Assembly: GCA_030037435.1 (NCBI GenBank) | Contig: JASHRI010000515.1 | Span: 1-37,577 of the forward strand | DNA length: 37,577 nucleotides | Reading direction: 5' to 3' | From: Candidatus Acidiferrales bacterium | Lineage (GTDB): Bacteria; Acidobacteriota; Terriglobia; Acidiferrales; UBA7541 | The notes under the pieces: model-generated | What the model was told of the DNA's origin: nothing | What the model saw: the letters and a program-made list of their open reading frames with translations, nothing else | The model's database searches: none | Part shown: piece after piece, positions 33,232-37,577 of the stretch | Numbering within the stretch: position 1 is the stretch's first letter | How the letters are laid out: each line of letters begins with the position of its first letter | Program-made: the position numbers and the translations under genes

Positions 33232-34635
33232 CTAAAACGCTCCGCAGTTAATAAGCAATTTATCGCTCGCCGTCCATGCGCTTGCAGCGGTCAGGGTGAC
33301 ACTTGATACGGTAAAGGCTGTCTCTCGCGTCACGATGTTGGTGCTCATATCGCTAACCTGGCAGGACCATCCGTTCACAGCAGCAGGAAGACCGATCACT
33401 CCGCTTGTGGCCGTGCCGCCCGTCCCAACGTTGATCTCAAATGCTTGGGTTCCGTTCTGTTGAATAATGCTGGCGCTGGTTCCGAAGCCCGATGAGATCG
33501 TTGGGGCAGCGCCAGAGGCCACAATATTGTTCGTAACCGTGTTGTAGATTCCAGCATATGAAAGCGAGGGAAGCGCGGGGTCGTACCCTGTAAGAACGTC
33601 CCCTCCCGTGCAAGGGTCAGTCGATGAGCACCGACTTTCAAAGTATCCATCCAGACTGATTGTTCCCGCACTCGCGCTCTGCGACATGGCGGCGGCATTG
33701 TAGCGAGTGATGTCGCCGCCGCTGTCGTTTTCGACCGAGTCCGCAACGAAATCAGGGCCGATGTTGGAATGCAAATCGGTTTGCATCAATGAATCCGAGG
33801 TAGCCTGCATGGCACCTGTGGCGATGATCGTTCCTCGGCCCAAGGCCACGCCGCACTCTGCCAGGATTCCTACTTGTCCGGTGAAAAGAGAGAATTGGGA
33901 GTTTATGTAATGGTGCTGTGCATTTGAACTTGACGGAGTACCCGATGAACAGTTGGGGCCAGAAACGATGAGATCATTCGTATCGTTCCAAAATTTTGCC
34001 TCAAGTTTCCAGTTGTTCGTATTGATACCAGTATTGTTGAAAACCTCGATTCCGAACTGATGGGCACCACTGAAATTCTGAACATAAACGCCAGCGCCAA
34101 TTCTTTGCCCTTCCGTGCCACCAAACTCAATTCCGCCCGCGCCGGAGTTTGGGTTCCCATTGCCGTCGATTACGATGCAATCAATCAGGCCTGCGCGGTC
34201 GTTCTGATTGCCACTAGCGGACACGATTTGCTCAATGAACGCGCCACTTCCGGTGTAGTTGAACACGGTCGATGTACCGACTACGGAACCGGATACGACG
34301 TTCCCTCCGCCGCATGATCCGATGACGTTGATTGCATCGTTGTGTCCAGATGTACCGAGAATAAGCTGCGTTGAAGTTGTCCATAGGCCACCCCCCATTC
34401 GGATCGTTCCGTATTTGGAACCATCCCTAGCGGTCGGCAACGCGGAATAAGCCGCACTCCAATCAGCCTTTGCGCTGCTCCAACTCAATCCGCTGTTCGA
34501 ATTATTCCCGTTGATGCTCACGAATTGAATAGCGTCGGGCATAGCGGGCTGGATGGCGACTGTGTTTACGTTGACCTGGGCTCTAAGTCCTGTGGCGAAC
34601 AACATCAGGAAGGCCGCTGCGATAACTTTTCTCAT
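33232..34635 (-). CDS. secreted beta-helix/tailspike-like protein of unknown function
   Basis: 467 aa; signal peptide MRKVIAAAFLMLFATGLRAQ; FVSINGNNSNSGLSWSSAKADWSAAYSALP resembles pectate-lyase-superfamily openings; Gly/Asn/Ser-rich repetitive body. Confidence 0.7.
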   Translation of the reverse strand: MRKVIAAAFLMLFATGLRAQVNVNTVAIQPAMPDAIQFVSINGNNSNSGLSWSSAKADWSAAYSALPTARDGSKYGTIRMGGGLWTTSTQLILGTSGHNDAINVIGSCGGGNVVSGSVVGTSTVFNYTGSGAFIEQIVSASGNQNDRAGLIDCIVIDGNGNPNSGAGGIEFGGTEGQRIGAGVYVQNFSGAHQFGIEVFNNTGINTNNWKLEAKFWNDTNDLIVSGPNCSSGTPSSSNAQHHYINSQFSLFTGQVGILAECGVALGRGTIIATGAMQATSDSLMQTDLHSNIGPDFVADSVENDSGGDITRYNAAAMSQSASAGTISLDGYFESRCSSTDPCTGGDVLTGYDPALPSLSYAGIYNTVTNNIVASGAAPTISSGFGTSASIIQQNGTQAFEINVGTGGTATSGVIGLPAAVNGWSCQVSDMSTNIVTRETAFTVSSVTLTAASAWTASDKLLINCGAF

Positions 34636-35101: not shown

Positions 35102-35382
35102 TCCGAGTTTGCCGTTGGTCGAGCTAGTGGCAGCACAAGAGAATTCCTGTCGTGCGCCGCCTTCGGAAGGTAGCTTTGGCCTTATCCGGTTGAGCGGGCT
35201 GCTCGTAGGCTGCTGCCTAGCACCCCTCAATTTGGGCGCTTGGGCTTTGCAATTCTTCGTCCGGGCGAAGCAACTGGGCCACCCTCGTCGATACGATCGC
35301 ATCCATTTGCAGCCCGTCGTGGCCTGAACTGCGCCCTCTCCCGCCTCATTCCTCGTCTGTGCTAGAGTGCCTGAGCGCTCCG

Positions 35383-37365
35383 ATGGACCCTGCTGCCATC
35401 TCCACCGAAAATCTGACGCGCCGCTCCGGCGGCCTGCTCGCCGTCGACCGCATCAACCTTCGCGTTACTCCCGGCCAGTTTTTCGGTTTTCTCAGCCCCA
35501 ACGGCGCCGGCAAAACATTGTTCAACGCGATATTCCAGGGCTGCTTAGTATTCGCCTGTCTTGTGCTCGCATGGCTACTTCGCTTCGAGTTCCATCTGCC
35601 ATATCGCTATCTGCTGTTTACCGCTGCACCGCTCCTGATCGCCATTCGTGTGGCCGCGATCGCTCAGTTTGGCCTTCTGCATGGTTGGTGGCGCTACGCG
35701 GGTCTAAGAGACGTTCTTGGCATCATCAAAGCGGTTCTGCTGGGCTCGATCTTATTCTTCGTTCTCATGCGCTATGTCCTTCACGCTACAGCGTTCCCGC
35801 GGTCGATTTACATCCTGGAAGCGCTGCTCACCGCAGGCGCTCTGGCCGGCGTACGGCTTCTCTCCCGTGTTTTGCATGAATCTGTCCAGAGCGGATCGGG
35901 TTCCTACAAACGCGTCATGATTATTGGCGCGGGTCTCGCGGCTGAAACGATCCTGCGTGAAATCAGGCGTCCAGGGAGCGGCTATGTTGCCCTGGGTTGC
36001 TTGGATGACGATCGCTCGAAGCTGGGCATCAGAATCCATGGCGTTCCGGTGCTGGGCGCTGTTGAACAACTTCCCAAGCTGTTGGGTGCTCATCCAGCCG
36101 ACGAGATACTGATCGCCGTTCCCTCGGCAACTGGATCGCAGATGCGGCGATTTGTTGAAATATGCGAGCAATCGCACGTTCCCTTTAAGACCGTGCCGGC
36201 CCTCAGAGACATCATCGCGGGAGAGGTCAGTATTCGACAGCTTCGAAAAGTCAATTTGGAAGACCTTTTGAATCGCGAGCCGGCGCGAATTGATCTGGAA
36301 TCTGTACAGAAGCAGATCGCGCGTCGCGTCGTACTCGTCACGGGCGCGGCTGGGTCCATCGGATCGGAGCTTTGCCGGCAGATTCTGGAGTACAGTCCTG
36401 CCAAACTGGTGTGCGTGGACCAGAACGAAACGGGCCTGTTTTATTTGGGCCACGATCTTTCGAGTCGTTTGGGTCAAACGGAGCTGATCTCCTGTGTTGC
36501 GGACATCCGCGATGTAGAGCGCCTGCGAGGCATCTTCGCGCAGCATTCTCCTCTTGTGGTTTTTCACGCGGCTGCTTACAAACACGTGCCTATCATGGAA
36601 TTGAATGTCCAGGAGGCCGTCCAAAACAACGTGTTTGCTCTAACGGGTCTTTTAGAGGTGGCTGAGGCAGGGAAATGCGAGAGCTTTGTATTGATTTCCT
36701 CTGACAAGGCAGTCAATCCCGCCAGCGTCATGGGCGTCACAAAGAGAATCGGTGAACTGATTCTATCTTCACGCCCTCGAAATGGGATGCGCTGCGTCTC
36801 GGTCCGCTTTGGAAACGTCTTGGGATCAAGCGGCAGTGTCGTACCGATTCTCGAGCGCCAGCTTCAGGCGAATCAGCCCCTGACGATTACTCACCCCGAA
36901 ATTAAGCGCTTTTTTATGACGACTCCCGAGGCTGTTGCGCTGGTCCTTCAGGCTTTTGCGATCGGTGAACATGGAGACATCCTTGTTTTGGACATGGGTG
37001 AGCCAATCAAGATTCTCGAACTGGCTCAAAGTCTCATTCGCCTGTCGGGCAAATCGGAGGAAGCTGTCCCGATTCGTTTCACGGGGCTTCGAGTGGGCGA
37101 GAAACTAATTGAAGAGCTCTTTTATCCGAATGAAGTGGTACACGCCACGCGCTTTGACGAGATCAAAATCACGCGCGGCACGATTCATGGTTGGCACGAC
37201 CTGCAGCGTCTCCTGCGGGAACTGAAGGATTCACTCACCATCGACGGTGCGGCGCCAGTTCGCGCCAAACTCGGCGAGATCGTTCCCGAATACTCATGCG
37301 AAACCAAATCCACGGACTCTTCAGACCAACCGATTCTGCAATCGCGTTCAGCCGTGGAAGGCTAG
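35383..37365 (+). CDS. CapD/WbpM-type NDP-sugar 4,6-dehydratase/epimerase with an ABC-ATPase-derived N-terminus
   Basis: MDPAAISTENLTRRSGGLLAVDRINLRVTPGQFFGFLSPNGAGKT, then LFNAIFQGCLVFACLVLAWLLRFEFHLPYRY... VLVTGAAGSIGSELCRQI ... AAYKHVPIMELNVQEAVQNNVFALTGL ... SSDKAVNPASVMGVTKRIGE. Confidence 0.92.
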   Translation: MDPAAISTENLTRRSGGLLAVDRINLRVTPGQFFGFLSPNGAGKTLFNAIFQGCLVFACLVLAWLLRFEFHLPYRYLLFTAAPLLIAIRVAAIAQFGLLHGWWRYAGLRDVLGIIKAVLLGSILFFVLMRYVLHATAFPRSIYILEALLTAGALAGVRLLSRVLHESVQSGSGSYKRVMIIGAGLAAETILREIRRPGSGYVALGCLDDDRSKLGIRIHGVPVLGAVEQLPKLLGAHPADEILIAVPSATGSQMRRFVEICEQSHVPFKTVPALRDIIAGEVSIRQLRKVNLEDLLNREPARIDLESVQKQIARRVVLVTGAAGSIGSELCRQILEYSPAKLVCVDQNETGLFYLGHDLSSRLGQTELISCVADIRDVERLRGIFAQHSPLVVFHAAAYKHVPIMELNVQEAVQNNVFALTGLLEVAEAGKCESFVLISSDKAVNPASVMGVTKRIGELILSSRPRNGMRCVSVRFGNVLGSSGSVVPILERQLQANQPLTITHPEIKRFFMTTPEAVALVLQAFAIGEHGDILVLDMGEPIKILELAQSLIRLSGKSEEAVPIRFTGLRVGEKLIEELFYPNEVVHATRFDEIKITRGTIHGWHDLQRLLRELKDSLTIDGAAPVRAKLGEIVPEYSCETKSTDSSDQPILQSRSAVEG

Positions 37366-37570
37366 CCCCGACTCCCCGAACTTTCCCTGCCGCGCTCTTC
37401 ACCCTGCCCTTAGAATGCCGTAGGCTTAATCTCCGCTCCGGTCTCCCTCCTTCGCTCCGCAGCACAATCAGTTCGCCGCCACCGTGCGCCTTGCTCCCGG
37501 AATAAAAATTACTGTAACTACGACACTCATAGGGGTATGTATTGGTCTTTGAATTCCCCAGGAGGAATCC

Positions 37571-37577
37571 ATGAACC
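37571..37577 (+). CDS. possible start of the next gene (truncated)
   Basis: ATG at 37571 preceded by AGGAGGAATCC; only 7 nt visible. Confidence 0.4.

Follow-up and report, generated by a model that had tools for sequence, protein, structure and literature searches.

In-frame fusion of a capD gene to the 5' end of an ABC-transporter ATPase gene: a probable old promoter capture in a metagenome-assembled genome

The window, i.e., the whole stretch of 37,577 nucleotides analyzed here, contains a capD gene whose reading frame opens with the 5' part of an ABC-transporter ATPase gene. The arrangement is probably an old and real promoter-capture fusion, by which capD would have lost its own promoter and leader. 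The window represents contig C154 of the metagenome-assembled genome of an uncultured acidobacterium, consisting of 562 contigs (87% complete, 4.5% contamination) and being the only genome from which the fusion is known; its nearest named homologues belong to Acidobacteria. The best-documented promoter captures by illegitimate joints come from laboratory selection. As deduced from the sequence comparisons described below, the fusion was confirmed as what appears to be a fairly clear instance of this known kind of event. It represents a natural case in which donor, joint, and replaced N-terminus are all identifiable, indicating that fusions of this kind are able to persist. It also offers an example, open to testing, of a polysaccharide gene with a patchy distribution being linked to a resident promoter. 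Knowledge of CapD or ABC transporters is left unchanged by it.

The fused reading frame and its CapD/WbpM part

The open reading frame extends on the forward strand from the ATG at 35383 to the stop codon at 37363-37365 and is open throughout, its translation being in agreement with the initial annotation. The length of 668 residues given there applies only if translation starts at the GTG at 35359, since the ATG yields a protein of 660 amino acids. Codons 1-44 (MDPAAISTENL...SPNGAGK; 35383-35514, forward strand) are derived from an ABC ATPase, are predicted to be unstructured, and end in a defective Walker A motif. The ABC homology stops at 35514 with the AAA lysine codon of this motif and is followed by the junction codon ACA (T45; 35515-35517, forward strand), at which position ABC genes encode Ser; homology to CapD becomes visible from approximately 35518 (codon 46). 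Accordingly, the proposed junction at about 35510-35520 was recovered, as were an ABC-ATPase start ending in Walker A as the N-terminus and a frame running directly into CapD/WbpM, the latter being evident from both the translation and the Pfam domains. The Pfam match to the start of ABC_tran (residues 22-51) was weak, with E values of 0.13 for the whole protein and 0.0077 when only residues 1-52 were searched. The segment stops inside Walker A, the first Gly of which is replaced by Ser, and neither Walker B nor the LSGGQ signature was present when sought in the ABC-derived segment.

The remaining part of the protein (35518-37365, forward strand) was identified, by its identity to homologues, as a CapD/WbpM-type nucleotide-sugar dehydratase devoid of its native N-terminal leader. 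Close homologues featured 59-64% identity over residues 45/48-339, the two nearest full proteins being 62% and 59% identical. With the long-type CapD/WbpM/PglF UDP-GlcNAc 4,6-dehydratases it shares N-terminal membrane helices (indicated by hydropathy and the structure model), followed by the CoA_binding_3 domain (residues 103-272; 35689-36198, forward strand; PF13727, E 1e-15) and the catalytic domain Polysacc_synt_2 (residues 317-596; 36331-37170, forward strand; PF02719, E 4e-99). The NAD-binding GxxGxxG and the catalytic MxxxK of this type are likewise present, and the motifs TGAAGSIGSE and VMGVTK are intact and located in invariant alignment columns. The nearest solved structures are 5BJU-5BJY, representing WlaL/PglF dehydratases. 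In contrast to the long-type enzymes, the window protein carries 44 residues of an ABC ATPase in place of the native leader.

None of the 12 close CapD homologues examined in related genomes possessed the ABC extension. They matched the window protein only from residues 43-51 onwards, and in 11 of them a start codon was located upstream of the matched part, giving leaders of mostly 10-25 residues; the native leader was thus replaced and not merely extended. Such a short leader before the first helix occurs in the close homologues and is not a requirement of the family. Furthermore, no other fused CapD homologue was found in 95 genomes of the order and 399 genomes of the class. Homologues commonly equipped with the same N-terminus, which had been named as the observation that would speak against a fusion, were encountered neither among the homologues examined nor in the 399 class genomes, and the interpretation of the ABC-like segment as a native CapD domain was rejected on the same grounds.

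An AlphaFold model based on an alignment of 11 sequences reached a mean pLDDT of 77, with residues 1-41 below 50, a low value that is partly expected because the other aligned sequences contain nothing equivalent to the tail. Helices were modelled for residues 42-66, 73-95, 108-131, and 140-172, followed by two folded Rossmann domains. Most likely, the product is a membrane CapD dehydratase of the ordinary kind, the tail of which would be unfolded, cytoplasmic, and of no use; we infer that the tail is without function. Its adoption as a functional N-terminal domain, e.g., for nucleotide binding or regulation, is highly improbable, as the P-loop domain is incomplete, having lost the first Walker A glycine and containing no Walker B or signature motif, and as the tail is predicted to be disordered and was seen in no other genome. 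The frame having stayed open despite marked divergence points towards a function, an argument that is weak with so few substitutions. For the same reason, the open frame was rejected as a sign of selection, approximately seven substitutions (estimated from the branch length) being too few.

Donor gene and age of the ABC-derived fragment

The presumed source of the segment was found in the same assembly. Positions 35337-35514 of the window (forward strand), comprising the upstream region, the start codon, and codons 1-44, appear to be a duplicate of the 5' part of a gene for an ABC-transporter ATPase, featuring 84% DNA identity over 178 bp (E about 1e-47) to C203:1962-2137. The latter region spans the upstream sequence, including approximately 46 bp before the start codon, and the 5' part of an intact ABC gene. 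At the protein level, the same-genome match shows 89% identity across 45 residues (E 7e-22), and the two identities obtained within one genome argue against a chance match. In a search of the bin for further copies of the fragment, only C203:1962-2137 matched closely. The best NCBIfam match of the donor-type ATPase was TIGR01188, with a score below the cut-off of this family. Compared with DrrA-like ABC-2 transporter ATPases, to which the donor gene corresponds, the window copy shares the first 44 codons and the promoter region; however, it breaks off within Walker A, and the Walker B and signature motifs are missing. Two features of a promoter capture are found: the same genome contains an intact donor gene in which both the promoter and the 5' coding part can be identified (C203:1962-2137), and the recipient has lost its own 5' end while its homologues keep theirs. 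The illegitimate in-frame fusion proposed in the initial annotation is supported by these results, as the suggested search for an intact ABC gene and for unfused capD genes in related genomes yielded both, the CapD homologues being free of the segment.

In a tree calculated on 132 bp, the ABC fragment grouped with the ABC gene of its own genome (support 0.97), and both share the residues DRIN, which were not seen in the other species compared. This grouping suggests that the segment arose in the same lineage or a very close one. Fragment and donor have diverged by 12-16%, and most of the differences between the fragment and the resident ABC gene are synonymous. Two replacements, F15S and G38S, the latter affecting the first glycine of Walker A, occur in none of the 16 intact ABC genes, in which both positions are invariant. 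As they would be unusual in a functional ABC gene, the fragment looks like an old duplicate that is no longer constrained to work as an ABC ATPase rather than a misassembled working gene, although the substitutions are few.

These observations also bear on the question of whether ABC sequence of the same or a related organism was wrongly joined to capD during assembly. Fragmentation of the bin, some contamination, strain variation visible at the contig end, and the occurrence of the fusion in only one genome are compatible with such a chimera, which is nevertheless quite unlikely: the fragment differs by 16% from the only other copy, F15S and G38S would not be expected, exact identity near the junction extends over no more than 20 bp, which is short for a de Bruijn misjoin, and the joint is exactly in frame.

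In the main rival scenario regarding the origin, the fusion came into being in a sister species and was then acquired together with capD by horizontal transfer. This capD type is indeed patchily distributed, with only G015 being comparable within the genus and the nearest N-terminal match originating from another genus. In addition, the ABC fragment differs by 12-16% from the resident gene, compared with approximately 4% between two versions of the capD 3' end (see below). Transfer is still considered rather unlikely, because, among the ABC genes of all species sampled, the resident one is the most similar to the fragment and because the presumed donor is probably located next door.

Presumably captured promoter-like element and start codon

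An extended -10 promoter-like element, TGCTAGAGT, was found at 35360-35368 (forward strand), 14 nt before the ATG, with no -35 element being seen. The sequence TGNTAGAGT was present in 13 of 14 aligned sequences and replaced by TGNTAGATT in the remaining one, the rest of the leader being unalignable. In the window, TGNTAGAGT was found once, compared with 0.42 occurrences expected by chance. A consensus promoter scan detected no TTGACA/TATAAT pair, so that the candidate promoter is of the extended -10 type only. A Shine-Dalgarno sequence was not visible before the ATG at 35383, which implies that the message would be nearly leaderless. The proposed capture of promoter, ribosome-binding site, and start codon consequently holds for the conserved promoter-like element and the ABC start codon, and not for the ribosome-binding site. 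We infer that the captured promoter would drive capD.

Near the start codons of the ABC genes themselves, a conserved TGNTAGAGT was likewise observed without a visible Shine-Dalgarno sequence, e.g., at L009:1982-1992, and this arrangement suggests that ABC gene transcripts may be near-leaderless across the genus.

It is possible, with a low probability, that the ABC segment is real but represents an inert scar, CapD being produced from a TTG (35518-35520, forward strand) or by read-through, while the captured promoter and ABC start remain unused. The TTG is located at the CapD boundary and would leave the first membrane helix complete; however, it is preceded neither by a Shine-Dalgarno sequence nor by the leader of the homologues, and the ABC start and the -10 element are intact with the frame open throughout. 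A near-normal CapD, as had been anticipated for this TTG, would not be quite normal, as the native leader (mostly 10-25 residues) is gone.

Genomic neighbourhood and proposed origin

In the window, capD is preceded by glycosyltransferase, methyltransferase, and sulfotransferase genes and a WecG-type gene, and thus lies at the end of a polysaccharide cluster. This cluster end also contains an ORF of 467 amino acids without Pfam match (33232-34635, reverse strand). Contig C203 starts within another version of the capD 3' end; bases 1-520 overlap the last 492 bases of the window (37086-37577, forward strand) with 91% identity over 520 columns, and the two ends of the overlap match exactly over 84 and 74 bp. 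In the search for further capD copies in the bin, only C203:1-520 was close. Ten of the 11 coding differences between the two versions are synonymous, which indicates that capD, with its dehydratase motifs retained, is under purifying selection. The simplest reading of the overlap is a strain bubble between what would be neighbouring contigs; it could alternatively reflect two strains or two capD copies.

Behind the capD 3' end, C203 encodes an orf, tRNA-Ser(TGA), the intact ABC gene, and the next gene in the same orientation. Taking the overlap as a strain bubble, the likely order is ABC fragment, capD, orf, tRNA-Ser, and ABC gene, which would place the donor approximately 2 kb past capD on the same strand and the two ABC starts approximately 3.7 kb apart. 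The orf between capD and tRNA-Ser (L009:514-1254) encodes a protein of 246 amino acids without Pfam or NCBIfam match.

Tandem duplications fusing silent, horizontally acquired genes to neighbouring promoters have been documented experimentally (PMC11111574), and the promoter-capture cases cited in that source include the Salmonella his-gene fusions (Anderson and Roth 1978) and the citrate transporter of the E. coli long-term evolution experiment. As in these cases of capture by tandem duplication or deletion, a neighbour's promoter would have been gained via an illegitimate joint, with the donor staying intact nearby. In contrast to them, the coding sequence was also fused in frame, the event appears to be old (12-16% divergence), the second copy is gone, and activation is putative. 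Deletion-born fusion genes (PMC12803068, preprint) resemble the present one in that two gene fragments are joined into a new ORF by rearrangement; the fit is poorer, since deletion consumes the parent genes there, whereas the donor ABC gene is intact here. For this reason, duplication is favoured over a simple deletion.

In the proposed promoter capture, capD at the end of the polysaccharide cluster would have been joined illegitimately and in frame to the ABC-ATPase 5' end, losing its own promoter and leader and gaining the extended -10 element, a near-leaderless start codon, and 44 codons. As the putative route, we propose that the unit capD-orf-tRNA-Ser-ABC(5' end) was duplicated in tandem: the joint formed between the copies would be exactly ABC(5')|capD, with the donor following on the same strand, and later loss of the upstream copy of the unit would result in the present layout. 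Upstream of 35337, nothing similar to tRNA-Ser, orf, or capD was found, the 700 bp before the fusion gave one weak 46-bp match, and no tRNA genes were detected in the window. Since no upstream remnant is present, a second loss must be assumed, which is a weakness of this route. Only tentatively can the locus be regarded as the fossil of a tandem-duplication promoter capture, old enough for donor and captured copy to have diverged by 12-16%; under this reading, the native capD would have been displaced by the fused gene, and the membrane enzyme would be synthesized with the ABC tail and tolerate it.

The tRNA-Ser(TGA) gene lies directly upstream of the ABC gene in this genome (L009:1392-1481) and also in G003, G007, and G014, thus in several species of the genus, where the vicinity contains other genes or has no detectable match to the window. 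In the genome studied, orf and capD occupy the position upstream of tRNA-Ser, in place of the genes seen in G003 and G014; these genes are absent from the window, and only short matches to them were obtained in the bin. As the pair is shared by G003, G007, and G014 in the company of other genes, it looks ancestral and capD appears to be the newcomer. In another genus (G021:C61), a 40-nt 5' fragment of tRNA-Ser(TGA) was located approximately 270 bp downstream of a CapD homologue (L056:4332-4371); it matches the tRNA-Ser of C203 with 95% identity and is truncated at the anticodon arm. The tRNA-Ser gene may thus represent a recurrent edge of capD-bearing islands.
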